DNA from: an uncultured Eubacteriales bacterium
Lineage (GTDB): Bacteria > Bacillota > Clostridia > Christensenellales > CAG-138
Reading direction: 5' to 3'
DNA: 51,205 bases
NCBI GenBank assembly: GCA_902787375.1
Contig: CADAGD010000003.1
Span: forward strand, 1-51,205
The notes under the pieces: model-generated
What the model was told of the DNA's origin: nothing
The model's input: only the letters and a program-made list of their open reading frames with translations
Databases searched by the model: none
Shown: piece after piece, positions 36,688 through 51,163 of the stretch
Position numbering within the stretch: the stretch's first letter is position 1
How the letters are laid out: each line of letters begins with the position of its first letter
Program-made: the position numbers and the translations under genes

Positions 36688-36770
36688 GCGGTCGTGGCGG
36701 AATAGGCAGACGCGTACGTTTGAGGGGCGTATGGGAGACCGTATGGGTTCAAGTCCCATCGACCGCACCA
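36688..36770 (+). tRNA. tRNA-Leu (GAG)
   Basis: 83 bases with encoded CCA. Acceptor stem GCGGTCG (36688-36694) pairs with CGACCGC (36760-36766), discriminator A, CCA at 36768-36770. The anticodon loop TTGAGGG has GAG at 36722-36724. The long variable arm (GGGAGACCG region) and GGTTCAAGTCC T-arm are typical of class II leucine tRNA. It marks the border between core genes and the accessory block. Confidence 0.95.
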
Positions 36771-36800
36771 AAAATCCGGGTTTCTCAACCCGGATTTTTC
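36771..36800 (+). terminator. Terminator of tRNA-Leu
   Basis: Twelve pairs (36771-36782 with 36787-36798) around TCTC, with CCCGG in the stem and a TTTTT end. The A-run on the 5' side would let it work on the other strand too. Confidence 0.92.
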
Positions 36801-37185
36801 TTTGCTTAAAATGCCTAAAATCCAATGATTACAAGGGTTTTTTGAAGCTCCGTATTTCAACATGGATCAGCTTCGGATCGTTAAAGACAGGATGCGTTGC
36901 ACACCGGTTGCACACGCTCTTGGATTCGGTTTTCTCAGCTGTTTAGCATTTTTTCTGCTCCCGGCACGATCCCGTTGCACACTTTTGGGCAGTTTTAGCT
37001 TTTTTAGTTAATACATGTCCATTTCTCCTGCGTTTTTCATGCGCTTATAAGCATATTGTTTCTCCGCCAAAGCAGGATTAGACGAACTATTACTTCCGGG
37101 CCACAGGGTTCGCGGTAAAGGTGATGATCTGAGGACGCAAAAGATTTGCCCCCGTACGGGAGTGGCAGTTCTCGTTTCGGATAAA
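36801..37185. other. Gene-free stretch after tRNA-Leu with a short repeated motif
   Basis: No convincing gene on either strand. GTTGCACAC occurs three times: 36896-36904, 36907-36915 (11 bases on, one helical turn) and 36974-36982. A perfect palindrome CCCGTACGGG is at 37151-37160. A minus-strand reading at 37016-37080 ends ALAEKQYAYKRMKNAG and might be the tail of a decayed gene, but it has no recognisable family. Its place directly after a tRNA suggests the scar of an integrative element; no integrase is visible. Confidence 0.4.
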
Positions 37186-37214
37186 TTGAATCTATGATAG
37201 AATAATGGTAAACT
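37186..37214 (+). promoter_or_regulatory. Sigma-A promoter of the apeA-like gene
   Basis: TTGAAT (37186-37191), 17 bases, TAAACT (37209-37214) preceded by TGG (extended -10). Between it and the gene lies an imperfect dyad CTATTT-tttgcg-AAATAG, possibly an operator. Confidence 0.65.
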
Positions 37215-37268
37215 AATAGTTAAATTCTGATTGCTATTTTTTGCGAAATAGAACAAGGAGGGTAACAA

Positions 37269-38693
37269 GTGGAATTACAGTATCGAGGAAACGGAAAGGT
37301 TTACTATAAGGATAAAGAGTATCCTTGTATTTTGTATCTCAACGAAAAAGAAGGCGGGATTGTACTTGTAATAAAAAATAATAACGGAACGGGATTGGGT
37401 GATTTTTTAGAGTTATCACTTGAAATGCCATTTCTGAGTGGTGTTCTTGAATCTGGATTTAAATTTACGCTTATTAGCGTTAAGAGAATAGGCACAAGAG
37501 ATTTAATCTCATATGGTATTACCGAGTACACTTATGACGCCGAATACATTCTTTGTGGTATTGGCGAGCGCAATCAGCAACCTCAATCATTTTATAAAGT
37601 TTGCTATACCCTATCGGACATTGTTGAGTGGGGAGAATACTCTATATATGATATTGACAAAGACGGAAGAATAACTAGTAAAGTTGAAACTGAAAAAAGA
37701 ACGCTTTTTGAAGGAACGAAGTATAGTATAAAATACTCTATAATCGGTTCCTTACTCCCAACAGTTCATCATGAACTCTTAAAGGAAAGTATTGAATTAA
37801 AGCAGAGTGGTGTAATTGAGATTGAGTTTTCATGCGAAGTATCATTTGAAAGCTTTAACGAAGTGTTTAACCAACTAAAAAGCTTGATTGAGATTGCATT
37901 ATTTCGAAAGATCAATGTTGAAAAGATTGTTGCGTACTCACATAAGCTTGATTATCAAATTGGGGATGCAGTATTTGAGCAATCCATTGAAATACACGGT
38001 GCTGCCATAAAGCAACAAAGCGAAGTGCCACACTCTATCTCATGGAAGTGGATTACTCTATCCGAGTTTATCAACCACAATTCGTTTGAGCATTTCATAA
38101 ATAAATACGAAAAATTAGTCCCGATAGTAGAACTATTTGTTGAGCCTATGCGTAATGATTCGATTTCGGATACGAGGGTATTTCTTAATACTGTTCAAGC
38201 GCTGGAAACATATCATTCTAGGTTTGTAACCAACAGCATTGACGATTTTAAATCAAGAGTTGAGAGCATCGTTAATTGCAATGGCGGACAACCTAATGAT
38301 GAAACAAGGAACTTCCTGCTTGCAAATAGCAAAAGCTTTATTACTCTTGAAAGCAGACTTGCTGATTTGTTGCAAGCAAATTGGAAAATTTGGTTTGATA
38401 CCGGCGAAATAACACACAAAGATTTCCCTTCGATAATTGCTCATACGAGGAATTATTATATTCATTATGATGAAAAAATCAAAGAGAAATATCGGATCCT
38501 GTCCAATGAAGAATTACCGTTTTACAATCGATCCTTGGCTGAAATATTGGAGTACTACATCTTGATTCAGCTTGGTTTCCCAGAAGGCCATGGCGAAACA
38601 AGCAAAAAGCTTGCAAATAGATGGGGAAATATCTCCCAGGATATAAGTATCTCCAACCTTTCCAAACGCAAGCTTCATGAGCAGAATCAATAA
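37269..38693 (+). CDS. apeA: ApeA-like HEPN-domain anti-phage protein
   Basis: 474 residues. The N-terminal half (about 1-240) is beta-rich; the C-terminal half is helical and holds HTRNYYIHY with Arg394 and His399, the R-x4-H active site of HEPN ribonucleases. This layout matches ApeA, a single-gene anti-phage system that stops infection by RNA cleavage; the assignment rests on architecture and the motif, not on a search. GTG start with AGGAGG seven bases upstream. It is clearly richer in A+T than flanking genes and uses A/T-ending codons, which points to horizontal transfer. It lies next to a type I RM operon on the opposite strand. Confidence 0.68.
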   Translation: MELQYRGNGKVYYKDKEYPCILYLNEKEGGIVLVIKNNNGTGLGDFLELSLEMPFLSGVLESGFKFTLISVKRIGTRDLISYGITEYTYDAEYILCGIGERNQQPQSFYKVCYTLSDIVEWGEYSIYDIDKDGRITSKVETEKRTLFEGTKYSIKYSIIGSLLPTVHHELLKESIELKQSGVIEIEFSCEVSFESFNEVFNQLKSLIEIALFRKINVEKIVAYSHKLDYQIGDAVFEQSIEIHGAAIKQQSEVPHSISWKWITLSEFINHNSFEHFINKYEKLVPIVELFVEPMRNDSISDTRVFLNTVQALETYHSRFVTNSIDDFKSRVESIVNCNGGQPNDETRNFLLANSKSFITLESRLADLLQANWKIWFDTGEITHKDFPSIIAHTRNYYIHYDEKIKEKYRILSNEELPFYNRSLAEILEYYILIQLGFPEGHGETSKKLANRWGNISQDISISNLSKRKLHEQNQ

Positions 38694-38734
38694 AACTTCA
38701 GGCTGACACTGGTATTATAAGAATTCACGACTTT

Positions 38735-38758
38735 GCCGCTTACACAAGCGGCTATTCT
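38735..38758 (+). terminator. Probable terminator after the apeA-like gene
   Basis: GCCGCTT (38735-38741) pairs with AAGCGGC (38746-38752) around ACAC and is followed by TATTCTTT. The T-run is imperfect. Confidence 0.6.
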
Positions 38759-38833
38759 TTCATCTCGCACATTCGTCAAACCATCCCAGGTCTGCTATGA
38801 TGTTCTCATAGAAAATCGAAAGGGGCGACGAAT

Positions 38834-39124
38834 ATGAAAACAGCGGCAAAGATACTACTTGCACCGATATGGTTCGTAACAACGATACTGCGCCTTGTGT
38901 GCAGACTTGTGGCAGGAATCGGGATCTATGTGCCGATGATCGGCGGCGGGCTGTTGCTCATGTATGATCTGCTGCTCGTCATTTTGCGCATGAGCTCAAA
39001 GGAGCTATGGCTTCAGTTGCTCGCCGTCGCCATAGCCATGCTGGCAATCCCCTTTATCGCCGGACTTCTTGAAGGCTTGCTGGAAAATGCAACCGACGCC
39101 ATAAAAGAATTCATAGAATCATAA
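38834..39124 (+). CDS. Small membrane protein, CD1845-like mobile-element cargo
   Basis: 96 residues, almost all hydrophobic: three helices (about 5-30, 35-54, 60-84). The start MKTAAKILLAPIWF and the overall pattern resemble the CD1845 family often carried by Tn916/CTn-type conjugative transposons of Clostridia. Function unknown. GGGG lies nine bases before the ATG. The GC content is similar to the core, unlike apeA. It precedes tnpV by 13 bases, so both are probably leftovers of one element. Confidence 0.55.
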   Translation: MKTAAKILLAPIWFVTTILRLVCRLVAGIGIYVPMIGGGLLLMYDLLLVILRMSSKELWLQLLAVAIAMLAIPFIAGLLEGLLENATDAIKEFIES

Positions 39125-39137
39125 GGAGGATAAACAC

Positions 39138-39491
39138 ATGGACATCACCTGCACCAAACACGGAGACTATTTCTATCCTGACCTCGTACTCCCTCCCCAG
39201 CCGACCGGGAATATCGGCCGCTTCGGGCGTATGCGGAAGAAGTTTTTGAAGGAGCATCAGCCCGATACCTTCGCATTGATGCTGATGGAAAACACCCTGA
39301 CCGAGCACCTCTTCGAAATCGACCGCCAGGCCAAGGAGCAGATCGACCTCATTACCTCTCAGCTCGCCCTTGCCGAAGGCGTGACCGAAGACCTCAAGGC
39401 CCGCGATCAGCTCGAATGGATCTGCCGGATGAATTCCTGCAGAGCCCGCGCTGAGGAGCAAGTCGTGCGAGAAATAGTGTTTCGTAGCTAA
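39138..39491 (+). CDS. tnpV: TnpV-like transposon-encoded protein
   Basis: 117 residues. The sequence (KHGDYFYPDLVLPP, then GRFGRMRKKFLKEHQP, then a helix with ENTLTEHLFEID) follows the pattern of TnpV, a small protein carried by Tn4451-like mobilisable and other clostridial transposons. Its role in transposition is not established. GGAGG is nine bases before the ATG. No large serine recombinase or relaxase is seen near it. Confidence 0.75.
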   Translation: MDITCTKHGDYFYPDLVLPPQPTGNIGRFGRMRKKFLKEHQPDTFALMLMENTLTEHLFEIDRQAKEQIDLITSQLALAEGVTEDLKARDQLEWICRMNSCRARAEEQVVREIVFRS

Positions 39492-39537
39492 ATAATTATG
39501 GCATGCAAATAGTTGATCGACATTTGATCTGAAAAAC

Positions 39538-39565
39538 AAAAAAGCCTTAAAATCAAGGCTTTTTT
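39538..39565. terminator. Bidirectional terminator between tnpV and hsdR
   Basis: AAAAAAGCCTT (39538-39548) pairs with AAGGCTTTTTT (39555-39565) around AAAATC. A-run and T-run flank the stem, so it can end transcripts from both converging genes. Confidence 0.88.
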
Positions 39566-39617
39566 AGTTGACTTACAGTTGACTGCAAAGGCTTGTGCCG
39601 CCGTTTTGCATGATAAA

Positions 39618-42600
39618 TCAGTTGTTCTCCTCAAAGTTTTCCACCTGTTCCATTACCTTGCGGAACACCTCCGGGCTGTACTGGGGCGGATAACCGTTTT
39701 TGATCAGGCAAACCTTGATATCAAACTTAAGCTGATCACGCACGATCTGGTTGTTGAGCCAGTCGGCAAAAGAGGATTTCGTGTCTATAATCTCCTTGAT
39801 CTTCTTTGCCAAGGTCTTGCATCTATCATTGACCAACACTCCGCCGACTTCTTTATCGGTGCCGTATTCGAAATTGTATTGATCACGCAGAGCCATGAGA
39901 ATATCATAGAAAGCCTTTTCCTCGAAGGTGAGGCCGACCTTGCGGAAGCTTTCGCGGTCCTCGTTCATTTCACGGAGGATCTGCAAAGCCTGTTCCGTAG
40001 CGTTTTGAATGATCTGCTCCGAAGTCAGCTCCTGAGCCTCGCCGGCCTCTTCCGCTGTCAAATGCTTACGGCGTTCGTGGTAAATCTCGATGGTCTTTTC
40101 CAGCATCTCCTGGAACTTTTTAGCCGCCATTTGATTGATTTTGCTGTATTCCGTAATCTGCTTGCGAAGCATCTTTATCAGCAATTCCAACTTCGATGCC
40201 GGCATTTTTACGCTTGAAAGCTTTTCAAAATACTCCGGGCTGAAAATATCCTCCTGCTCACCTTTGTCGAGAACGCTCTCTACTCGGGTGTACCTCAGCG
40301 CTTCTTCGACCATCCGGGCAACGTTGCGGTTCATTGTATCTGCATCGACTTCGCTCGTCCCGCTCATCTTGCGCACAAAGCCGGCGATGGCCATAAAGCA
40401 CTGCGCAAGAGCGGATTCCTCTTCGCCCAGTTCTCCGGAGGGCTGGCAGATATCATACGCGCTGCGCATCCTTTTGACCGTTTTAAGGAAATAGGTTTTG
40501 AACGACACCTGCTGGACGTTCTTTCCGCCTCGGCTGTTCGTGTTGAGCACCTGAGTCGAGGCAAATACATACTCCGCAGCTTTAGCGAGCAACTGATATC
40601 GAAGGGCGGGATCCTCTTCCGGATTCAAGAACGGCTCAAGATCATACTCCTTGAATAATTCCGTAAGAATGAACAGCTCTTCCCTGAACACCCCCGTCGC
40701 CTGCTCAACGTCATCCGCTGTCGGCGCAACAGAATTATCACCGCCGTACATCTTCATTGCCTCGCGCATATTATCACGAATGCCGATATAGTCAATGATG
40801 AGACCGTGATCCTTGCCCGGGTACTTCCTGTTGACGCGGCTTATTGTCTGGATCAGCATATGCTTCTTCAGAGGCTTATCGTTATACATATATGTCAGCG
40901 ACGGCACGTCGAAGCCGGTGATCCACATATCGACGACGACAACGATCCGGAAATTCGATTTTTCCTCCTTGAAAGCCGCATCCATCTCGTCGGAACGCTT
41001 GTCGTTTCTAACTCCGCCGAGATAATTATACATATCCTCCGGGTCATTGCTGCCGACGCTCGCCACCATAGCCATAAGCGGCATGGGTTTCAGCCTGCGC
41101 AGTTCTTCATCGGAAGCATGCACTCCGTCGGGGACCTTCTTCTCAACAAACCACTCCGGGTACTTCTCACGGAAGATCTGCAGCAGATCAAAGGCGATCC
41201 TTCTGTTCGCGCATACGACCATTGCCTTTTGCGTTCTGTCGGGATCTGCGGCGCATGCGGCAACATAATGGTCGTGGATATCCGTGGCAAGTCTCATAAG
41301 GCGTTTCGGCTCTCCTAGGATCACTTCCATGGAGCTCATTGCCTTCTTGCTTGCCTCGATATCCTCCTCGGTCGCACCGTCATCTGCACAGCGCTTGTAA
41401 TATGCCTCTATCTCACGAACTTTTTGTTGGTCGAGCAGCACTTTCGCAATACGCGGATGATACTTTATCGAGACCGTCAGCCCGTCGGCCACTGCCTGAT
41501 CCATGGTGTAACGGTCGATCTCATCGCCGAAAGTCTGATATGTCTCTGCAATCGGCGTGCCGGTGAAGCCAACGAAAGTCGCCTGTGGGAAAGCTTCCCT
41601 CAAAACCTTCGCATACGGCTTGGACACCATTGCTTTCATATTCGCGTCGGCGTCTTTGCTGAATTGGATCTTTCTTGAATGCTCAAGCTGTGTCCTGTGC
41701 GCCTCGTCGGAGAAGCAAATGATATTTGTGCGTTCATTGATAAGGCCGATCTTATCATCCTCGCGGTCGCAGAACTTCTGTATGGTGCAGATATAGAAGC
41801 CGCCGCTTTCGCGTGCGCCGAGCTCTTCGCGCAGCTTCCTGCGGTTCGGAACGACGCTGACTTCGCCGAGGTTCAAAAACTCCTTGCTCTTTGTAAAGAG
41901 CTTCGCGCCCTGCTTCTGGAGCTCTTCGCGGTCAACTATCATTACGATGGTCGGCGAACCGAGCTCCGGCACTTCCGTGCAGCGAAGCGCAAGCTGACGG
42001 GCGAGGAAGGCCATGGTATAGGTCTTGCCGCAGCCGGTCGCACCGAAATAGGTTCCGCCCTTGCCGCTCTTTTCAAGAACAGATTTAACGATGCTGCGTT
42101 TCAAAAGCCGTGATGCGAAAAACTGCGGATAGCGGCAGACTATCTCTTTTTCGTCGCCGTCATATTCGCTGTCCTGAAAATAGATATAATCGCGGAATAT
42201 TTCAAGGAATCTCTCGGGGGCGTACACACCGTTTATCATGGTTTTGGTCTCCTCAAACGGGAGGGTGGAGACCTTGTCCCCCTCGTTCACTCGGCGCCAG
42301 GCATAGAAATGCTCATAAGGCGTGCGCACAGTGCCGAGCCTCGTTTTAACGCCGTCGGAGATACACGCGAGAGGACAGTAGTGCAGAAGATGCGGGATAT
42401 CCCTCCAATAGCGGATAGTGATCTGCTCCCATGCGTCGTGAATGGTGGCGTTTGTATCGGCCGGATTCTTCAGTTCGATCGCGCAAAGGGGCATGCCGTT
42501 GACGAAAAGCAGAACGTCCGGGCGGCGGTTCTCGGTCTGCCCGTTGTTGGTGTATTCGACGGTTAATTGGTTCACCACGCGGAATATGTTGCTGCCGGGA

Positions 42601-42947
42601 TCGTCAAAATCGATCAGCGCGACCATGCGGGGAACGCCGCTTTCGGGTGTGAACTGTATGCCGTTCACCATCCAGCCGTAAACCTTATGGAGGGTGGCGA
42701 AATCACTTTCCGCGCCGGCAAGACGGACGACGTCCATTATCCGCTTTATCTCATCGGCGGTCAAATCGACGTTGGTCTTGCTCAAAAACTGCTCGAGATC
42801 GTCCGCGTAAAGCACCTCCCGCTTTGAGGCGCGCGTAATACTGCTTCCCGGCAGATACTGCCAGCCCGCAGCCTCCAGATATGATATGAACGCGGCTTCA
42901 AAATCGCTTTCGCAGAAGCGGCCGTTGTAGTTTTTCAGTCGGGACAT
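39618..42947 (-). CDS. hsdR: Type I restriction enzyme, R subunit
   Basis: 1109 residues. The ATP-driven translocase and nuclease of a type I system. The nuclease domain has RPDVLLFVNGMPLCAIELK with Asp144, Glu158 and Lys160 of the PD-(D/E)xK site. The motor has Walker A GATGCGKT (302-309), DEAH (414-417), FTGTP (461-465) and the late motif QTISRVNRKYPGK. A helical C-terminus follows for contact with HsdM/S. The Shine-Dalgarno GGAGG overlaps the stop codon region of the upstream unknown gene, so the two are coupled. Apparently intact. Confidence 0.95.
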   Translation of the reverse strand: MSRLKNYNGRFCESDFEAAFISYLEAAGWQYLPGSSITRASKREVLYADDLEQFLSKTNVDLTADEIKRIMDVVRLAGAESDFATLHKVYGWMVNGIQFTPESGVPRMVALIDFDDPGSNIFRVVNQLTVEYTNNGQTENRRPDVLLFVNGMPLCAIELKNPADTNATIHDAWEQITIRYWRDIPHLLHYCPLACISDGVKTRLGTVRTPYEHFYAWRRVNEGDKVSTLPFEETKTMINGVYAPERFLEIFRDYIYFQDSEYDGDEKEIVCRYPQFFASRLLKRSIVKSVLEKSGKGGTYFGATGCGKTYTMAFLARQLALRCTEVPELGSPTIVMIVDREELQKQGAKLFTKSKEFLNLGEVSVVPNRRKLREELGARESGGFYICTIQKFCDREDDKIGLINERTNIICFSDEAHRTQLEHSRKIQFSKDADANMKAMVSKPYAKVLREAFPQATFVGFTGTPIAETYQTFGDEIDRYTMDQAVADGLTVSIKYHPRIAKVLLDQQKVREIEAYYKRCADDGATEEDIEASKKAMSSMEVILGEPKRLMRLATDIHDHYVAACAADPDRTQKAMVVCANRRIAFDLLQIFREKYPEWFVEKKVPDGVHASDEELRRLKPMPLMAMVASVGSNDPEDMYNYLGGVRNDKRSDEMDAAFKEEKSNFRIVVVVDMWITGFDVPSLTYMYNDKPLKKHMLIQTISRVNRKYPGKDHGLIIDYIGIRDNMREAMKMYGGDNSVAPTADDVEQATGVFREELFILTELFKEYDLEPFLNPEEDPALRYQLLAKAAEYVFASTQVLNTNSRGGKNVQQVSFKTYFLKTVKRMRSAYDICQPSGELGEEESALAQCFMAIAGFVRKMSGTSEVDADTMNRNVARMVEEALRYTRVESVLDKGEQEDIFSPEYFEKLSSVKMPASKLELLIKMLRKQITEYSKINQMAAKKFQEMLEKTIEIYHERRKHLTAEEAGEAQELTSEQIIQNATEQALQILREMNEDRESFRKVGLTFEEKAFYDILMALRDQYNFEYGTDKEVGGVLVNDRCKTLAKKIKEIIDTKSSFADWLNNQIVRDQLKFDIKVCLIKNGYPPQYSPEVFRKVMEQVENFEENN

Positions 42948-42950
42948 ATT

Positions 42951-44351
42951 CTATCCTCCATATTCCTCAAGTTTTCGGAGTAGTTCATCTAATGCGGAGA
43001 CTTGTCTCTCATCTTGTTCTTCTTCAGCAATCAATTCTTCAAATTGAGCTTCTGACAGCGTTTCTATGCGATAATCCAGTTCGTTTGGGATATTTCTGTT
43101 CAGGAGACATTTTCTTGTTAATGATTCCAAATACAAAGCAAGATTAACCAGAACTATGGTCTCATCGTCCGATTCCTTGTTTGTAAAATGCACAAATCGG
43201 TTTATTGATTTCTTCGCCTCTTCCAATAATAGGCGTGCATAGCGCTTATCGGCATAATCATCATGATCCTTTCCCAGATAGTAAATCTTTCCCAAGTTAT
43301 AACCGTATTCAGAGAAGGAGCCGCCATAAATGCTGATACTGCACAAACAGTCAAATAACGTTGTTTCATAATTTGACTCCGGATACCGAATACCATTGTT
43401 TTCGTATCCTTCAAAACTCATATTCTGCAACTCATTTCTTAAAAAACGCAAAGAGTACACTATCGCGTTCTGATACTTTGCAAGTAATTCTTTATTCCTT
43501 CGATCCGATAATTCAACTGTAAAAATACGAACGCAATCATCAAATAGATATTCGCTGCCATAGTCAAATCTTTTGCAATACTCTTCCTTTAGATATGCCA
43601 AATACTGGACAACATCATTAGAATAATCAGATATATTTTTAACAGGTTCATTTCTTAAACGTTCATACTCTTTATCTGTGAAGTTGTTTTTGGCTTCTAT
43701 GATCCTTGGAATCAAATCGATCCATTTTGTAAGATATTTCTCAAACTGAGAAATATAAAGAGGGAGGTATATTGCTTCCTCTTGACGATTAGAAGGATAG
43801 ATAATCGCTGTAAGATCACCACTCTCTCCAATGAAGGTGGAAAAATCATCTTTCCATGTAACAAACGGGCAACAATGAAATTGGTTGCCATTCAAGAATT
43901 CTTTTTGGCGATTAGTGCAAAGGGGATGAACCGCGCATAATGAACGAATATACTCGAAGTATTTTTGATCACTACCATTTTCTCCAATTGGGCTTTCAAA
44001 TACCGATGTAGACTTTTCGATTTCTCCGATAAGATTATCGTCAATCCGAAAAATCCTCCCGATTGTTTTTATGCAATCAATCACAATGCATGCGCTATTG
44101 ATAAAATCATAAAAGTCAAAAGCAGAACGGGAATCTCTGTTCTTGCCAAGTTCGATACTATTGAGATAAGCAATAGTATCTTCAAGTCTGTCCATTGCAG
44201 CACAAGTGCGGTTCCATGCACAATAAGATCCGTTTGTTTGCTTCTCTTTATGCGTGTTCTCAATGGATTGCTTAACGCGATCATTTACCGCATCTCGCAA
44301 GTTTGTTGCATACTTCAAGTTGAAGTTGAATTGAAATGTATTCATTTTCAT
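42951..44351 (-). CDS. Unrecognised protein encoded between hsdS and hsdR
   Basis: 466 residues with no family I can name. Mostly helical prediction: an N-terminal region with CAWNRTCAAMDRLEDT and FYDFINSACIVIDCI, a cysteine/histidine patch (SLCAVHPLC, QFHCCPF) at about 140-170, a charged middle, and an acidic end (LIAEEEQDERQVSALDE). No Walker motif, methylase motif, nuclease signature or R-x4-6-H is seen. Its start overlaps the hsdS stop by one base and its end carries the hsdR Shine-Dalgarno, so it is made together with the RM subunits. It is A+T-rich like hsdS and unlike hsdR and hsdM. It might be an accessory defence effector, as PrrC and RloC are in other type I loci; this is position-based inference. 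Confidence 0.75.
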   Translation of the reverse strand: MKMNTFQFNFNLKYATNLRDAVNDRVKQSIENTHKEKQTNGSYCAWNRTCAAMDRLEDTIAYLNSIELGKNRDSRSAFDFYDFINSACIVIDCIKTIGRIFRIDDNLIGEIEKSTSVFESPIGENGSDQKYFEYIRSLCAVHPLCTNRQKEFLNGNQFHCCPFVTWKDDFSTFIGESGDLTAIIYPSNRQEEAIYLPLYISQFEKYLTKWIDLIPRIIEAKNNFTDKEYERLRNEPVKNISDYSNDVVQYLAYLKEEYCKRFDYGSEYLFDDCVRIFTVELSDRRNKELLAKYQNAIVYSLRFLRNELQNMSFEGYENNGIRYPESNYETTLFDCLCSISIYGGSFSEYGYNLGKIYYLGKDHDDYADKRYARLLLEEAKKSINRFVHFTNKESDDETIVLVNLALYLESLTRKCLLNRNIPNELDYRIETLSEAQFEELIAEEEQDERQVSALDELLRKLEEYGG

Positions 44352-45454
44352 TATTCCTCCAACGATCCCTTTATCAAAATTGGGCAGATATCTTTTATCT
44401 GCTTCTTTAGCTCATCACAAAGAGTTTGCCGCTTTATTAGGGCAGTATAAATATTGGTGATGTTCGCTTGCACCTGCAGACTCGGAATGGGTATCCTATA
44501 ACCCGCGAGATTCTCATAGCTCAAAAACTCATACGATGTTCCCTGCGAAGCCCAGTAAACAAATCTTCCGAACTCTCTTCTAGACAACCAAAGCATTAAG
44601 TATTCCGGCTTGAGTTTAGATTCATCTTTTACATAGATTACATCATAAACTGCTGACACAATACAATCGGGTCCTGTTCTCATTGCAACGGCTACATTTT
44701 CATTATTCAACTGCGTACAATAGGCTATTTGCCCCGTTCGCACGACCTGCCGCCCAAGGAAGTTTTCATTCGACCTTTGAGGAGTAATGAATTTCTTTTG
44801 AATGTTAATCCCCTGCTCAAGAGTAATCGAGCCGTCCTTATTCTTTTCGTTGCTCTGCCCAATAAAGTTGCCAATCGGCTCACACGGCATTTTCCGCCGC
44901 AGGTCCTCGATATAGCCGTCGCAGACGAGTTTCAGATCCTCCAACCCGCGCTCATAGCTCTGCTGATTGGCGACCATGGCTTTATAGATATCCACATATT
45001 TCTGCTGAACGGAAAGGGGCGGAAGTTCGATATCTATATCACACATATCCTCCCAGTTGAAGGTTTCACGAGCTGAACCCCAGGAGTTGAACCGTGCATA
45101 ACGATCAAATTCCGGACGATTGAAGTACATGAACAGGTATTCGGCACTCAACAATTCTTTTTTTGAGATACTGAACACCACATAGGAAGAAGATACAATG
45201 AATGTGCTGTTTGAATCATTGTATGCCAAGGTGATCTTTTCTCCGTTTCTTGAAGTAACTGTTACATACGCAAAGAACCCCGGCTTTACAATTATGTATG
45301 GTGTGAGCGAGACGCCCTCCATATCTGCTTTGGTTTCAATAAATGCCTTTTGAATGGAGATGCCTTTAACATCTTCAAGAGTAAACTTTCCATCGGTATT
45401 TCGAGCATCTTCTAACTGAATAAGCTCGCCAAGCTTGTACTTACTCAATCCCAT
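44351..45454 (-). CDS. hsdS: Type I restriction enzyme, specificity subunit
   Basis: 367 residues. Two target-recognition domains (about 5-165 and 200-335), each followed by a conserved helix region: LPPLSVQQKYVDIYKAM near 175 and IPSLQVQANITNIYTAL near 335. The pair sets the two halves of the recognition site. The ATG at 45454 follows AGGGGGA and overlaps the end of hsdM by 14 bases; longer in-frame readings upstream are out-of-frame hsdM sequence. Composition is A+T-rich, as expected if the domains were exchanged from another source. Confidence 0.93.
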   Translation of the reverse strand: MGLSKYKLGELIQLEDARNTDGKFTLEDVKGISIQKAFIETKADMEGVSLTPYIIVKPGFFAYVTVTSRNGEKITLAYNDSNSTFIVSSSYVVFSISKKELLSAEYLFMYFNRPEFDRYARFNSWGSARETFNWEDMCDIDIELPPLSVQQKYVDIYKAMVANQQSYERGLEDLKLVCDGYIEDLRRKMPCEPIGNFIGQSNEKNKDGSITLEQGINIQKKFITPQRSNENFLGRQVVRTGQIAYCTQLNNENVAVAMRTGPDCIVSAVYDVIYVKDESKLKPEYLMLWLSRREFGRFVYWASQGTSYEFLSYENLAGYRIPIPSLQVQANITNIYTALIKRQTLCDELKKQIKDICPILIKGSLEE

Positions 45455-47045
45455 ACCCGATCCCCCTGAAAGCATCCTCCAGCATCTTCTGGGACTGTTT
45501 TTCCTGCGCAATGAGCTCCCGCATTTCGTTCTGAATCCGGCGCATTTCCGTGGGGAAATCGATTTCGAGATCGTGGTCGATGAACTCGATGTACTTGCTG
45601 GGCACGAGGCTCCAGCCGTTACGCTTGATCTCTTCGATCCCGACGCTGCGGTAAAGCTCCGGCACGGCATAGCTTGTCCCGTCCGTTCCCTCCGTCTGCC
45701 ATGTATGGTAGATACCCGCGGCCCGCTCGATCTGCTCCGAAGTCAACTGCACTTTCTTTTTGTTTTCGTTCTTGACCGGGTTTTCCGTCCACGTGCGCAG
45801 ATCCATAAACAGTATTTCATGCTCGCGGTTCCGAAGCTGCCTGTCATGGTATATGCCGCCCTTCTTGTTGCGGTTGAGTATCCAGAGCGTGACGCTGATA
45901 TCCGTGGTGATGAACAGCTCCCGAGGCAGTATCACTATCGCCTCGACCGCGTCGTTCTCTATAAGCTTTTGCCTTATGCGCACAGTATCGCTGTCGCCCA
46001 AGGCGCCGTTTGCAAGCAGAAAACCCGCAACGCCGTTAAGTGGCCTCAGGTGCGAAAGGATGTGCAGTATCCACGCATAGTTTGCGTTGCTCTCCGGCGG
46101 GGTTTCATAATCCGCCCAGCGCGCGTCATTCCGCAGGTTTTCATCGAACCAGCCCTTGAGGTTGAATGGCGGATTGGCCATTATGTAATCGAAATAAATG
46201 CCCTTGTGCAGATCGTGTGTGAAGGTGGAATCGCTCTCGCTGCCGAGGTTATGACTGATACCCCTTAATACCAGGTTCATTTTCGCAAGACGATACGTGG
46301 CAGCTTCCTTTTCCTGTCCGTAAACGTTCATTCCGCTCAAATCGCCTTTTCTTGATTTGACTATATCAGCGCTTTGAATGAACATGCCGCCCGAGCCGCA
46401 GCAGGGATCGTACAGCTTGCCGTCGAAGGGCTCTATCATAGCTGCGATAAGCTGAACGACGTCATGGGGAGTGTAGTATTCGCCCTCCTCCTTCGTTGCA
46501 TTGACCGCGAATTCCTTGAGGAAGTATTCATAAACGCGGCCGATCAGATCCTTTTCCTCGCCGAAAGCCTTGTGGCTGATCTTGTTGACCTCATCCACAA
46601 GCTTCTTAATATCATTCGGCGCAAGGTTGCGTTGAGTAAAAGTTCCCTCTACAAAACAGCCCTTGAGGTTCTTATCATTGGCCGCCATGCTTCGGAGCGC
46701 GGCGTCGAGCGCAACGTTCAGACCGGGAGCGGGAGTGTTGATAATGGTGGACCAGCGCGCCTCCGGCTGCAGATTGTATGTGCCGTCTGTGAAGGTCGAG
46801 TCGTCGAAAAATGCTTCGACTATCTGCGGATCGTCCGGATCAAGCCCCTCGGCGATCAGACTTTTGCGAAGGTTCTCAAGCCCGTCCTCATATTTTTCAC
46901 CGATGAAACGGAGAAAGACGAGCGTAAGCATCATGTCGCGCTTTTCAAAAAACGAGCCGGAGTTGCGTGCCTGACGCAGTATGTCGCGGCATTTGAACAG
47001 TATGGAATCGAGATTGATCTTTTCTTCAACCTTTTTCTTAGCCAT
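45441..47045 (-). CDS. hsdM: Type I restriction enzyme, modification subunit
   Basis: 534 residues. N6-adenine methyltransferase. The HsdM N-terminal helical domain (about 8-145) is followed by the catalytic domain with LYDPCCGSGGMF (motif I, SAM binding) and MANPPFN (motif IV, NPPF). Intact length. It begins 13 bases after the ATPase gene, and its last codons carry the hsdS start. Confidence 0.95.
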   Translation of the reverse strand: MAKKKVEEKINLDSILFKCRDILRQARNSGSFFEKRDMMLTLVFLRFIGEKYEDGLENLRKSLIAEGLDPDDPQIVEAFFDDSTFTDGTYNLQPEARWSTIINTPAPGLNVALDAALRSMAANDKNLKGCFVEGTFTQRNLAPNDIKKLVDEVNKISHKAFGEEKDLIGRVYEYFLKEFAVNATKEEGEYYTPHDVVQLIAAMIEPFDGKLYDPCCGSGGMFIQSADIVKSRKGDLSGMNVYGQEKEAATYRLAKMNLVLRGISHNLGSESDSTFTHDLHKGIYFDYIMANPPFNLKGWFDENLRNDARWADYETPPESNANYAWILHILSHLRPLNGVAGFLLANGALGDSDTVRIRQKLIENDAVEAIVILPRELFITTDISVTLWILNRNKKGGIYHDRQLRNREHEILFMDLRTWTENPVKNENKKKVQLTSEQIERAAGIYHTWQTEGTDGTSYAVPELYRSVGIEEIKRNGWSLVPSKYIEFIDHDLEIDFPTEMRRIQNEMRELIAQEKQSQKMLEDAFRGIGYGIE

Positions 47046-47058
47046 GTCAGCTTCCCCC

Positions 47059-48336
47059 TCAGTTCTTCAGCACAGTGATCGGCACGACGTATACTCCGTC
47101 CTCGCGCCTGTAGGCGTAGGGAGAAGTTCCGGTCAGCACCATAAGGAATGACGGTTCTTTCATCTTGGAGGTGTCGATCTTGTCGGCAACTGCCTTAAGC
47201 GTATGCGCGCCCTCCTCGATAAGCTTATCCCCTCCGAGCTTGATCTCAACAAGGCCGTAGCTGCCGTTGCGCAGGTGGATGACCGCGTCGCATTCCAGAC
47301 CTTCCTTTGTGCGGAAATGGTACACGCTTCCTTCCATCGACTCGGCATATACGCGAAGATCGCGAATGCAGAGCGTTTCAAAAAACAGGCCGCAGGTCTC
47401 AAGATCGTTCAAAAGGTCGCCGGGACCGACGCCGAGGGCGGCCGTTGCGATGGAAGGATCGACAAAGTAGCGCGTATCGGAAGTGCGGATCGCCGTTTTT
47501 GAGCGCAGATTCGGGCTCCATGCCGGGCAGTCCTCGATAACGAATATCTTTTTGAGCGCGTTGGTGTATGAAACAACGGTATCCTTGCTCAGCTCCATAT
47601 CGTCGCTGACGTTGATATCCTCACAGATCGTGGTGTTCGGAGCTTGTGTGCCCTGATGCCTTGCAAGTGAACGCATCAGAAGCCGCGCGCGGTTTTCATT
47701 GCGCGAGACGCCGTCCACGCGGCTGATATCGGATTTTACAACGGCGTCCAGATAGTCGAAGGACTGAATAAGGGCGTCTTCGCCTTCGAGGAAGGTAGCC
47801 TGCGGCCATCCGCCGCGGCAGATCAGAAATGCTATGTCTTCAAGTGTTGCCGTGTTCTCCGCGAAAACCGGCATGTCGCCTTCGGAGAAAAGCGCACCGA
47901 GGCTGACAGCGCCGGCGGATTCACCGGATTCGTATAGGCTCATAGGCCTCATTCTGATCCATGCGAATCTGCCGGTGCCGGTATGATGTACCTGTTCAAG
48001 ATCCGCCGGGACAGCGGAGCCTGTCAAAAGGAAATGACCGAAGCCGTCACGGTGATCCGCTTCGAAACGCACTGCATCCCAAAGCTTCGGAGCCATCTGC
48101 CATTCGTCAATAAGACGAGGCGTTTCGCCCTGAAGCAGCGAACGCGGGCTTATATCGGCAAGCTGCAGATTTTGCCTCACCCTGTCGGGATCGCTCATAT
48201 AAAGGATGCTTGCCGCATGCTGTTCGCAGGTGGTCGTTTTACCGCACCATTTTGCGCCTTCCACCAGTATCGCCCCTTTATTTCTCAAACGATGAGCGAT
48301 CGCCTCATCGATCACCCTCGGTTTATAGATTGCCAT
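47059..48336 (-). CDS. AAA-family ATPase with DUF4143 domain
   Basis: 425 residues. The N-terminal AAA_14 domain has Walker A GAKWCGKTT (about 27-35), Walker B-like RLIDEW and a sensor FLLTGSA. The C-terminal DUF4143 region ends with ECDAVIHLRNGSYGLVEIKLGG, which resembles a PD-(D/E)xK-type nuclease core (Asp, then Glu-x-Lys). Such proteins are common near toxin-antitoxin and defence loci, but their role is poorly known. GGAGG precedes the ATG. It is the first gene of the minus-strand unit leading into hsdM 13 bases on, so it is likely co-expressed with the RM system. Confidence 0.82.
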   Translation of the reverse strand: MAIYKPRVIDEAIAHRLRNKGAILVEGAKWCGKTTTCEQHAASILYMSDPDRVRQNLQLADISPRSLLQGETPRLIDEWQMAPKLWDAVRFEADHRDGFGHFLLTGSAVPADLEQVHHTGTGRFAWIRMRPMSLYESGESAGAVSLGALFSEGDMPVFAENTATLEDIAFLICRGGWPQATFLEGEDALIQSFDYLDAVVKSDISRVDGVSRNENRARLLMRSLARHQGTQAPNTTICEDINVSDDMELSKDTVVSYTNALKKIFVIEDCPAWSPNLRSKTAIRTSDTRYFVDPSIATAALGVGPGDLLNDLETCGLFFETLCIRDLRVYAESMEGSVYHFRTKEGLECDAVIHLRNGSYGLVEIKLGGDKLIEEGAHTLKAVADKIDTSKMKEPSFLMVLTGTSPYAYRREDGVYVVPITVLKN

Positions 48337-48367
48337 TAGGCTATCCTCCGTCCTGTTTGCTGATAAT

Positions 48368-48396
48368 AGTATACAGCATTATAGGATAATAATCAA
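48368..48396 (-). promoter_or_regulatory. Promoter of the ATPase-hsdMS-unknown-hsdR operon
   Basis: On the minus strand TTGATT (complement of 48391-48396), 17 bases, TATACT (complement of 48368-48373), about 30 bases before the ATPase start. The remaining gap to the hip operon (48397-48588) holds a small inverted repeat GGAGGC-cct-GCCTCC (48462-48476) and no gene. Confidence 0.65.
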
Positions 48397-48588
48397 GCAA
48401 AACCTGCGATTTGGCGAAAAAATATCCTGTGAATCGGAGCATACACAACCTGATTTTCGGCGGAGGCCCTGCCTCCCGACTTCCCGGGTTTCGTTATTTC
48501 TCCCAGAATTATTTTACACTAACAGGGCGTTCGCGTGTGCGGGCGCTCTTTCTGTTGGAAAAGTTCGGAGATCGATTTGATTAGGTGA

Positions 48589-49542
48589 TCACGCTTTGAT
48601 TGCGCCGCACCTATCCTCCATCAGCGCTATCAAGCCCGCTTTCATGTCATCCGGCAGCAGCGAGTTTTCCGCATCCGCGATAAACCTGGAAAGCGCTGCA
48701 ATGACTCTATCGATCAAATCGTTCGCGGCCTTTTCGGGTATGCCCGCGGTATCTGCAAAGATTAGGAAGTCCTTTCGGCGAAGATTAGCCTTCTTGCCGT
48801 TCATCGGCAGAGCGAACTGCTCCTTGTCCTCCGGCATGACCAGATTGACCGGGAGCAGGTCGTAAGCCGGAGAAAGAACGTAAACGCCGCTTTCGGGAGC
48901 TGTCTCTATGAGCGAGAAATTCTTGAGGTGCATATCTGAATTGCCGACGGCGAAGGAGAAGACCAGCCGCAGGAAAAGCTCCGCCATATCGAGCGCCGGG
49001 ATCGACGAATACTTCTTAATAAGCTTCGCGCAGCGCTCGTACGAGCCCTTGTATTTATCCTGCGTCAGCCTTTCGTCCAGCTGACAGAAATCCTCCATTG
49101 CAAGCTTTTTCGTGCCGCTTTTATCCTTGATGCGATCGACGCGCTTTGTAATGAAGGCGTATCCGCTCTCGGCCTTTATGAGAGCGTGCGGGACCGTCTT
49201 GATCCCGACGCGCGCCGCCATCTGCATTACAAGATGCTCGGATTCGGGGAGAGCCTTGAAGGCTTCGACCTGGGGCTTCAGTATGTAGCCGGTCGGATAG
49301 TCCACGAGCGTAAGGCGGGGCTGCTGTCCGCGGCCTGAATGGAGATGGAGTGAAAGCTTCTTCTGCACTCCCGGCACGGTAAAGCCCTTGTCCGTGCTCT
49401 TTTCAACGAGAACGGAAAGCGATTCCTCGTCAAGCTCGATCAGCGGAAGCTTCGTGGTCCCGAAGAACTTCTTTATGCATCTGTCATGCCATCCGTGTTC
49501 GGTATTGGGTTCAAGCGGTTTCCCGCAGCAAAGGCAGTTCAT
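48589..49542 (-). CDS. hipT: HipT-like kinase (HipA C-terminal domain)
   Basis: 317 residues. Serine/threonine kinase of the HipA fold, lacking the N-terminal HipA subdomain, which is a separate gene here. An N-terminal CLCCG...HDRC cysteine/histidine cluster (residues 3-22) comes first. Then the loop TVPGVQKKLSL (55-65) that carries the autophosphorylation sites in relatives, YILKP with the ATP-binding Lys89, the catalytic loop VGNSDMHLKN (199-208, Asp203, Asn208) and the metal-binding YDLLP (Asp228). HipA targets GltX and HipT of E. coli targets TrpS; the target here is unknown. Its ATG overlaps the hipS stop by four bases. Confidence 0.85.
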   Translation of the reverse strand: MNCLCCGKPLEPNTEHGWHDRCIKKFFGTTKLPLIELDEESLSVLVEKSTDKGFTVPGVQKKLSLHLHSGRGQQPRLTLVDYPTGYILKPQVEAFKALPESEHLVMQMAARVGIKTVPHALIKAESGYAFITKRVDRIKDKSGTKKLAMEDFCQLDERLTQDKYKGSYERCAKLIKKYSSIPALDMAELFLRLVFSFAVGNSDMHLKNFSLIETAPESGVYVLSPAYDLLPVNLVMPEDKEQFALPMNGKKANLRRKDFLIFADTAGIPEKAANDLIDRVIAALSRFIADAENSLLPDDMKAGLIALMEDRCGAIKA

Positions 49543-49883
49543 TCAGTCACCTCCGATCTGGGCTTATCGTACACGCTCACATTTCCGATACCGTCGCGGC
49601 AGGCGACGAGCAGCAGCCCGAAGCGGTCCTGAGGATCGAGCTTCCAGTTGCGGCTGACGACTTCGAGCAGCCAGCCTTCGGGAACGATCCCGTCGAAGAA
49701 CGGGAACAGCGTTTTAGAGACGTACGGCTTTTCGGAAAGCGGCATCGTCAGCGACACTGCAGACGCGTTGGGAGCGGACAGATAGGCGGGATCGTACATG
49801 AAGATATAGCCCTCGTCGGTCTCCGAAAGGAGCCCGGCGAAGCTGTCGCGAACGTAAATGTAAGCGGTCCTGAAGGTGTTCAT
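49539..49883 (-). CDS. hipS: HipS-like protein (HipA N-terminal subdomain)
   Basis: 114 residues. Matches the N-subdomain-1 of HipA: AYIYVRDSFAGLLSETDEGYIFMYD, LSLTMPLSEKPY-like strand (SLTMPLSEKPY), FFDGIVPEGWLLE and the end DRFGLLLVACRDGIGNVSVY. In the E. coli HipBST system the equivalent HipS is the antitoxin. It starts one base into the stop codon of the preceding HEPN-like gene and overlaps hipT by four, so three proteins are translated in a chain. Confidence 0.85.
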   Translation of the reverse strand: MNTFRTAYIYVRDSFAGLLSETDEGYIFMYDPAYLSAPNASAVSLTMPLSEKPYVSKTLFPFFDGIVPEGWLLEVVSRNWKLDPQDRFGLLLVACRDGIGNVSVYDKPRSEVTE

Positions 49884-50332
49884 CAGGCGTTCCTCCGTGA
49901 ATCAAATATCTTTCGAGTTAGAGCAAAGTACAACTCCTCAAGTTCCGCACCGAATGCTTCAAGTTCGCGGGTTTCGTCTATAAGCATACGCCCTATCGCT
50001 TCACTTCTTCCCGCCTTGAGTACTTCGCGCTTCTGGGCGTCTTTTTTCACGCAAATGTCAAGATAACACTGATGGCACCAATAGTTGCGCTTCTCACGGA
50101 ACTTGTTCAGCACTTCGTATGCAGTATCGGAAAGACGAAGAGTATCATTATCCTTTGTAAGCTTGACGAGCTCTCGGATCACGCTGCCCATGCTGTCACG
50201 TTCAAGGTCATCCATGCTTGCAATAAAGCCTTTATCACTCAGAATGGAGCAGATCCTCTTCAGATTGAATTCGAGGCCTTGATACAATGCTATGATTTCA
50301 CTGTGAGCGATTCGGAATTCTTCCAATATCAT
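49883..50332 (-). CDS. HEPN-like protein in the hip operon
   Basis: 149 residues, predicted all-helical. Residues 75-90 read LNKFREKRNYWCHQCY, giving Arg82-x4-His87, the catalytic signature of HEPN ribonucleases (compare RNYYIH in the apeA-like gene of this window). The N-terminal helix (EIIALYQGLEFNLKRI) and the spacing fit a HEPN four-helix bundle. No nucleotidyltransferase partner of the MNT-HEPN kind is nearby. Two bases separate it from hipB and it overlaps hipS by one, so it is an integral operon member. It could be a second toxin, an RNase activated by the kinase module, or an adaptor that has lost activity; sequence alone does not decide. Confidence 0.7.
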   Translation of the reverse strand: MILEEFRIAHSEIIALYQGLEFNLKRICSILSDKGFIASMDDLERDSMGSVIRELVKLTKDNDTLRLSDTAYEVLNKFREKRNYWCHQCYLDICVKKDAQKREVLKAGRSEAIGRMLIDETRELEAFGAELEELYFALTRKIFDSRRNA

Positions 50333-50334
50333 AC

Positions 50335-50544
50335 TTATTCCTCGCTCCTTTCCGTTTTGCCGGGAACGGCTTCATATCCGAACATTCCAAGCGCGATGTT
50401 GACTTTGTCCATTCGCACGGTCGCCTTCCCCTGCTCAAGCTCGCGCACGAACCTAAGCCCGAGACCGGAGCGCAGTGCAAACTCCTCCTGCGTGAGCCCC
50501 GCTTGCTTGCGGCTTTCCTTAATAAATTGAGCTATCTTATTCAT
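50335..50544 (-). CDS. hipB: HipB-like XRE-family repressor
   Basis: 69 residues, one helix-turn-helix domain (about 5-60): IAQFIKESRKQAGLTQEEFA, then GLGLRFVRELEQGKA with the recognition helix, and a C-terminal beta-type extension (MFGYEAVPG) like HipB. It should repress its own operon by binding the palindromes upstream. GAGGG lies about eight bases before the ATG. Confidence 0.88.
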   Translation of the reverse strand: MNKIAQFIKESRKQAGLTQEEFALRSGLGLRFVRELEQGKATVRMDKVNIALGMFGYEAVPGKTERSEE

Positions 50545-50577: not shown

Positions 50578-50606
50578 ATTTTATACCCTTTAAGGTGTAA
50601 TGTCAA
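50578..50606 (-). promoter_or_regulatory. Promoter of the hip operon, overlapped by operator 1
   Basis: On the minus strand TTGACA (complement of 50601-50606), 17 bases, TAAAAT (complement of 50578-50583). The spacer is almost exactly operator 1, so bound HipB would block RNA polymerase. Confidence 0.75.
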
Positions 50607-50682
50607 GGGATAAATTAGAAATTATACCCGAAATGGTATAAATGCATGCTAAAAACTCGTCATTATATCCTAACGGGTATAA
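50581..50682. promoter_or_regulatory. Three HipB-type operators, 41 bp apart
   Basis: A 20-bp palindrome TTATACC-N6-GGTATAA occurs at 50622-50641 (perfect), with one-mismatch copies at 50581-50600 (right arm GGTGTAA) and 50663-50682 (left arm TTATATC). Their starts are exactly 41 bases apart, close to four helical turns, so three dimers would sit on one face. The array fills the gap between hipB and the divergent ParB-like gene; operator 2 also overlaps a possible rightward promoter (TTAGAA 50615-50620, TATAAA 50637-50642). Confidence 0.85.
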
Positions 50683-50695
50683 ACACAGACACAAA

Positions 50696-50725
50696 GCGCT
50701 CGCGAAAGCGGGCGCCTTTCCTTTT
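50696..50725 (+). terminator. Hairpin with T-rich tail in the ParB leader
   Basis: GCGCTCGC (50696-50703) pairs with GCGGGCGC (50708-50715), one G-U, capped by GAAA and followed by CTTTCCTTTTC. It resembles an intrinsic terminator or attenuator lying between any rightward promoter and the gene. Confidence 0.5.
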
Positions 50726-50752
50726 CAAAATCAAATTACAAGGAGAATCAAT

Positions 50753-51163
50753 ATGAATACAAATAAAATAAAAGAAACGATCAAAGAACTCAGCATCTCG
50801 GAGCTTCATCCCTTCCGGGGACACCCATACAGGGTTGTCGATGACGAAGAGATGGAAAGGCTCGTCGAGAGCATTGAAGAGCACGGAGTCATGACTCCGG
50901 TCAACGTTCGCCCAATTGATGGCGGGTATGAGGTCATATCCGGGCACCGCCGCATACACGCGGCTAAGCGCGCGGGGCTTACGACTGTTCCCGCCATCGA
51001 AATGGATATGACGAGGGACCAGGCTGCCGTGGCACTCGTCGACAGTAACCTGCACAGGGAGAAGCTTCTCCCGAGTGAGAAAGCGTTTGCGTATAAGCTG
51101 AAGCTGGGCTCTACTCCCAAAATCGTAAAAAATGTGGTATACTCAACCACATGGAAACACTAA
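50753..51163 (+). CDS. ParB-like nuclease/CTPase N-terminal domain protein, 3'-truncated
   Basis: 136 residues in the present frame. Residues 10-100 form a ParB/Srx domain: ISELHPFRGHPYRV, LVESIEEHGVMTPVNVRP, then GYEVISGHRRIHAAKRAGL (the GxRRxxA CTP/DNA motif) and VDSNLHREKLLPSEKAFAY. Such proteins are common on plasmids and integrative elements of gut Firmicutes. After AYKLKL the similarity ends and about 19 unrelated residues precede the stop, where an insertion-sequence end appears to begin (about 51106). The helix-turn-helix and dimer domains are therefore missing. AAGGAG is seven bases before the ATG at 50753; a longer reading from 50642 crosses the operators and hairpin. Confidence 0.75.
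   Translation: MNTNKIKETIKELSISELHPFRGHPYRVVDDEEMERLVESIEEHGVMTPVNVRPIDGGYEVISGHRRIHAAKRAGLTTVPAIEMDMTRDQAAVALVDSNLHREKLLPSEKAFAYKLKLGSTPKIVKNVVYSTTWKH

Follow-up and report, generated by a model that had tools for sequence, protein, structure and literature searches.

HipBST toxin-antitoxin systems, described from E. coli O127:H6, Haemophilus, Tolumonas and Legionella, encode HipB, HipS and HipT as separate genes in that order. In other species HipT targets an aminoacyl-tRNA synthetase (PMC6581861, PMC8262856), HipS neutralises HipT (PMC6581861) and, in E. coli, HipS blocks HipT by means of a Glu-x-Trp element (PMC10627512). Here we describe a hipBST operon in a 51,205-nucleotide (nt) stretch of DNA from an uncultured Eubacteriales bacterium (contig CADAGD010000003.1; the whole stretch is the window in what follows) in which a fourth gene, X, lies between hipB and hipS and very probably encodes a HEPN-superfamily protein. 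The arrangement is new, real and neatly documented in one genus. With slightly better than even confidence, we read it as the capture of a roaming, free-standing HEPN ribonuclease (RNase) gene by a standard HipBST operon, in which X acts in parallel with HipT.

The four genes run hipB-X-hipS-hipT on the minus strand (48589-50544), with junctions of +2, -1 and -4 nt in the map of open reading frames (ORFs). Like described HipBST systems, the operon has separate hipB, hipS and hipT genes in this order, short overlaps, the HipA kinase motifs and the Glu-x-Trp element of HipS. Unlike them, it has a fourth gene, so that hipS does not stand right behind hipB. The HipT kinase motifs are all there, namely the Gly-rich loop T55-V-P-G-V-Q-K-K, D203-x-H205 and Y227-D228. 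The T-V-P of the loop places this HipT in the T[IV][TP] group of PMC10627512, whereas E. coli HipT has S-I-S. Upstream of hipB stand three palindromes spaced 41 bp, which we infer to be HipB operators; sister operons have similar sites.

Most related operons do not have X. A HipT search matched 28 of 103 genomes of the family and a HipS search 18 of 395 genomes of the order. We counted 21 distinct hipBST operons in which hipB and hipS are both visible, leaving out G037, whose contig stops short of hipS, G019, whose contig begins within hipB, and as distant HipA-like matches L062-L076, L078 and L116-L120. X is present in three of them, the window's operon and intact four-gene copies with the same order in G080 (L051/L002) and G081 (L053/L003), and all three genomes are of one genus, g1. 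The other 18 operons are X-less (G079, G011, G010, two in G077, G058, G074, G051, G067, G396, G201, G219, G385, G330, G381, G309, G389 and G178); in these, -5 to 20 nt separate the last aligned hipB codon from hipS, and the HipT of G381 aligned only partly.

The X-less form is found in very close relatives. G079, from the same genus g1, carries an X-less operon whose HipT is 95.0% identical to the window's. In G019, from another genus of the family, HipT is 97.2% identical and the junction is readable and also without X. In both, ...AGGAGCGAGGA is joined directly to ATGAACACC..., at the point where the filled operons hold an extra 455 nt (window and G080) or 458 nt (G081). ATGA is common to hipB and hipS in the empty form; in the filled form X follows AGGAGCGAGGA, and its own 3′ end supplies a GGAGGAA ahead of hipS. 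The insertion is seamless in that the purine-rich stretch found ahead of hipS in the empty form now stands before X, while hipS has the GGAGGAA that came with X, so that translation can still pass from gene to gene. Because close relatives keep the same operon without X, its capture is likely to be recent, and the near-identical HipT of G019, a member of another genus, indicates that the operon itself has probably moved. We considered a target-site duplication, as ATGAAC just before X in G080 equals the first six bases of hipS. We rejected it as a weak sign, because most of these bases also follow from the end of hipB and ATAAGT stands at this place in the window and in G081.

Sequence divergence also points to a late arrival. 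Among the three copies, synonymous divergence (dS) is 0.06-0.13 for X, 0.17-0.72 for hipB and 0.17-0.32 for hipS; for hipT it is 0.10 between the window and G080 and 0.79-0.80 between G081 and the other two. As the dS of X is below that of hipB and, in the comparisons with G081, below that of hipT, X seems to have arrived and spread late. The ratio of non-synonymous to synonymous divergence (dN/dS), 0.25-0.52 for X and resting on few changes, suggests mild constraint. The window and G081 are 90-100% identical along X and hipS; in most of hipT identity falls to 70-85%, interrupted by blocks of 95-97%. The G081 operon is, judged from this pattern, a recombination mosaic, and recombination in the hip sequence on its flanks appears to have moved the X-bearing tract. 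At the protein level, the product of G081 hipT (L053 1501-2451) is 82.6% identical to the window's HipT, while HipB is 100% and HipS 95.6% identical.

Next, we consider the identity of X. HEPN proteins are marked by Rx4-6H with a polar residue after the arginine and by Ex3[KR] (PMC3710099). In X, the polar N83 follows R82 in R-x4-H, the second, acidic residue lies in E-x3-[KR] (E21-F-N-L-K25), and the protein is predicted to fold as five helices, in line with the all-helical HEPN fold. For a modelled relative, L084, the 11 best PDB rows are all HEPN proteins.

Conservation of the motif was counted in relatives found by profile, because the 47 loci from our genome_contigs scan came in part from a search pattern, NYWCHQCY, that holds the motif, which makes its invariance there circular. 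The profile was itself built from motif-bearing sequences, so that some bias is left in the following counts. With the three operon copies left out, R-[ND]-x3-H is present in all but one of the 21 profile-found relatives, the exception being a 40-residue fragment without the region. L101 does not extend over the E-x3-K site; among the other 20, 19 keep the motif and L100 shows E-x3-A instead. The spacer between R and H varies (NYW-C, NHW-C, NWL-V, NFW-T, NHI-C, NYL-A, NYY-V and others), and Q18, E21, G49, R82 and H87 do not vary across 24 divergent family members, at least 90% of which keep K25. It is on the motif, the relatives and the predicted fold that we place X very probably in the HEPN superfamily.

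A sequence-only reading of this DNA had put forward the four-ORF order with its +2/-1/-4 coupling, the R-N-Y-W-C-H motif in the 149-residue protein and the HEPN call. The order and coupling are borne out by the ORF map and the HipB, HipS and HipT family models, and the motif by its place at R82 to H87. The HEPN call stands, as homologues keep R-x4-H and the predicted fold is not a non-HEPN one. The same reading had proposed that a Ser/Thr kinase toxin is joined here to a HEPN ribonuclease, with phosphorylation possibly switching RNA cleavage or the HEPN protein acting as sensor, and had taken the arrangement as undescribed. Neither such switching nor a sensor role of X is supported by any of our results. 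The unit is no chance assembly, since it recurs intact in two further genomes of one genus, but the absence of the gene beside hipBST in relatives, which the reading had named as a ground for refutation, largely applies: X is missing from 18 of 21 hipBST operons and from the G019 junction. Our literature search agrees with the claim of novelty: no description of a HEPN gene within a hip operon was found in open-licence PMC papers, the scope of all our literature searches, and the hip organisations named in the available part of PMC8262856 do not include a HEPN insertion.

Several known HEPN and Hip systems resemble parts of this locus. In many X relatives the R-x4-H region weakly matches the Swt1-like, Cthe_2314-like and DUF4145 HEPN families of Pfam: with E allowed up to 1, 32 of 40 members are matched by HEPN_Swt1 (best 7.7e-05), 14 by DUF4145 and 9 by HEPN_Cthe2314, and in a 24-member set HEPN_Swt1 and zf-C2HCIx2C each match 8 and DUF4145 5. 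A search of PDB sequences with the X profiles A1 and A4 gave no HEPN match, the best hits being unrelated proteins (E 0.088 and 0.19). When A4 was aligned by hhalign with small sets of HEPN_Swt1 and HEPN_Cthe2314 sequences, neighbour proteins serving as controls, no probability exceeded 5.8%. The top three rows were HEPN_Swt1-derived, one of them pairing R-N-Y-W-C-H with R-N-K-W-A-H; we give this result no weight because other HEPN sets ranked among the controls.

X differs from the HEPN-MNT (HepT/MntA, type VII) systems in having R-x4-H-x2-Y where these have RX4HXY, and its operon holds no nucleotidyltransferase gene, the neighbours of X being hipB, hipS and hipT. Like the AbiF/Abi_2 HEPN proteins of C. 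difficile, which have an RNA antitoxin (PMC12373285), X is a HEPN-type protein of Bacillota in mobile DNA. No abiF RNA was found near X at the Rfam gathering score, tRNAs being the only matches in the window and 12 of the 47 X loci; X starts 2 nt after hipB, whereas solo copies may have an RNA of an undescribed kind. HipAD/DS-6 (PMC13092281) likewise combines a HipA-family kinase with a non-HipB partner in an anti-phage operon, but that partner has DUF3037/DUF1829 and is not a HEPN.

The X family is far from confined to hip operons. The 47 relatives in genome_contigs come from records mostly of Clostridia, Lachnospiraceae, Oscillospiraceae and other gut Bacillota, and by profile search the family is present in 23 of 395 genomes of the order, the window's own among them. 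X relatives were not found in the plasmid and phage sets, and none of 7 pattern matches in viral_contigs was confirmed. A class-wide draw of 391 genomes returned the window's own copy only; this draw is thin, and relatives exist in other gut families. Hip genes stand beside X in two of the 47 loci, L002 and L003, which by X sequence are the copies of G080 and G081. In 44 of the 47 there is no hip match in the available DNA, several loci being short or ending near X. L009 has a single weak HipB-like match (7e-04) in a 293-residue protein outside any hip operon.

Solo X often adjoins defence or mobile genes. For example, a DUF3427/PLD/helicase protein is encoded 111 nt upstream of X in L004, a type I methylase 6 nt downstream in L043 and a C5 methylase and a HATPase protein nearby in L045 (X is truncated in both of these), a RES-domain protein in L028, and a tyrosine integrase in L023 and its look-alikes. 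Other neighbours are of housekeeping type (NMT1-like, elongation factor and tRNA synthetase genes). Since family members elsewhere adjoin restriction, RES-toxin or integrase genes and have no hip genes beside them, there is no need for X to depend on HipBST. These loci outline a HEPN family of gut Bacillota that lies below the Pfam cut-offs.

We looked for a constant partner of solo X and rejected a candidate, a full-length helix-turn-helix (HTH) gene 32-82 nt downstream in 11 related integrase-bearing loci, as recurrent neighbours occur mainly among such look-alikes. The commonest family among 142 neighbouring ORFs is HTH_3, with 12 (56 loci, redundant loci left out). X relatives lie beside an HTH gene in L022, L023, L025, L026, L032, L033, L036-L039 and L041, most of which also have a 64-residue excisionase-like ORF and a tyrosine integrase; X is apparently cargo of one integrative-element type there. 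In L019, L021, L046 and L048 an ORF of about 60 residues (MFE-x-M/W-K-E-K type, coiled-coil-like) starts 8-14 nt after X and is a possible partner in this subgroup. In L005 a tRNA gene (5818-5904) ends 87 nt before solo X, as at an integration site.

According to the capture reading, X is probably a second, parallel toxin. It would dimerise and cut RNA through R82 and H87, and the HipB operators would now govern X along with hipS and hipT. Derepression, whether by phage attack, stress or loss of the locus, would then release an RNA-directed toxin beside the attack of HipT on an aminoacyl-tRNA synthetase, X working beside HipT and not via it. The near-identical HipBST operon with and without the HEPN gene forms a natural before/after pair, and because this pair exists, the gain of an effector by simple insertion under an old toxin-antitoxin repressor becomes a directly testable question.

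Several observations favour the main rival of this reading, in which X is a passenger that came by recombination, has no tie to HipBST, keeps the job of its relatives, and is either just driven from the hipB promoter or largely silent. X occurs in one lineage, in 3 of 21 operons, and its family is found in many unrelated neighbourhoods. Outside that lineage it does not co-occur with hipBST: taking the 395-genome draws of the X and HipS searches as one set and scoring hipBST as a HipS match of at least 59% identity (13 genomes, 5 distant matches left out), hipBST is present in 1 of 20 X-bearing and 9 of 372 X-less genomes (p = 0.41) when the three operon genomes are excluded. Of these 20, 19 lack any HipS match and G330 carries hipBST on a contig other than that of X. 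Including the three gives 4/23 against 9/372 (p = 0.004), which merely restates the insertion. The low G+C of X speaks for capture (45.8%, and 50.0 at third codon positions, against 53.8-58.0% and 64.3-76.5 in hipB, hipS and hipT), but composition by itself is weak because hsdS of the same island is equally low (45.1% and 50.2). As to the HEPN identity, no curated HEPN model matches X above its cut-off and all 10 relatives scanned singly lie below the cut-offs; with E allowed up to 1, X itself matches nothing in NCBIfam or PADLOC, and its sole Pfam match is Zn_ribbon_19 (E 0.17). Nonetheless, the near-zero gaps, the intact frame, the active site intact in all three copies and the apparent movement of the X insertion between operons by recombination argue against a mere passenger, which we consider rather unlikely.

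The tight coupling of the genes would also suit a coupled four-part system, in which HipT phosphorylates X, or HipS or HipB binds it, and kinase and RNase switch one another. Precedents in kind are the AMPylation of HepT by MntA (PMC7641770) and the HEPN-like, kinase-linked KEN domains of RNase L and Ire1 (PMC3710099). However, the usual HipBST form is without X (18/21), the usual X form is without hip genes (44/47 loci), and X carries RX4HXXY where the HepT class has RX4HXY; we regard such a system as decidedly improbable. Direct restraint or triggering of the HEPN RNase by HipT or HipS, a bacterial kinase-HEPN relay of four parts with a logic like that of Ire1/RNase L, is by analogy conceivable and, in our judgement, improbable. 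If it were true, the insertion would have been kept not by chance but as a two-toxin fail-safe, with a kinase acting on translation and a nuclease on RNA under one repressor, and we found no precedent in Hip systems for a kinase and an RNase acting on each other. It seems highly improbable that X has no RNase activity and is an accessory protein that binds zinc or does no more than bind RNA. C86-H87-x-C89 does give weak zinc-finger matches across the family (zf-C2HCIx2C in 30/40, best E 0.00026; Zn_ribbon_19 in 9/40), but C86 and C89 change in wider relatives (for example RNWLVH, RNFWTH and RNYLAH) whereas R82 and H87 stay, and we rejected a zinc-ribbon or zinc-finger identity because these cysteines vary.

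Table 1. Positions of the operon features and of neighbouring genes in the window
Feature	Positions	Strand	Description	Evidence
hipB	50335..50544	-	69 aa HTH autorepressor, hipBST type	TIGR03070 72.2 bits (cut-off 71.65), PF01381 32.1 bits
X	49883..50332	-	149 aa protein, very probably HEPN; inserted gene	invariant residues, predicted five-helix fold, PDB rows of modelled relative L084
Predicted HEPN active-site motif	50072..50089	-	R82-N-Y-W-C-H87	R-[ND]-x3-H in 20/21 profile-found relatives
hipS	49539..49883	-	114 aa antitoxin-type protein (HipA N-subdomain 1)	TIGR03071 92.2 bits, PF13657 86.6 bits; E69-G-W71
hipT	48589..49542	-	317 aa Ser/Thr kinase toxin core	PF07804 HipA_C 161.3 bits
Stretch missing from empty operons	49884..50338	-	455 nt, X and hipB stop region	alignment with G079 and G019
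Three palindromes	50581..50682		20 bp each, TTATACC-like to GGTATAA-like; starts 50581, 50622, 50663	inverted repeats
tRNA-Leu(gag)	36688-36770		start of defence-rich stretch
apeA	37269-38693	+	second HEPN gene, ApeA	PF18739 E 2.6e-21; ApeA_NTD1 E 4.6e-20
466-aa protein gene	42951-44351	-	between hsdS and hsdR
AAA_14/DUF4143 gene	47059-48336	-	downstream of hipT, same strand	PADLOC candidate family PDC-S01 (E 1e-59)
ParB_N-domain ORF	50642-51163	+	173 aa, divergent from hipB

Finally, the operon closes a defence-rich part of the window (36688-50544; Table 1) that starts beside a tRNA gene and runs through ApeA, type I restriction-modification and the AAA-DUF4143 gene to hipB-X-hipS-hipT. The 466-residue protein encoded there, tightly packed between its neighbours, has no Pfam or PADLOC match, and its gene is perhaps another insertion into a defence operon. 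The ParB_N-domain ORF may be a truncated ParB-like gene, because it ends soon after the ParB_N match.
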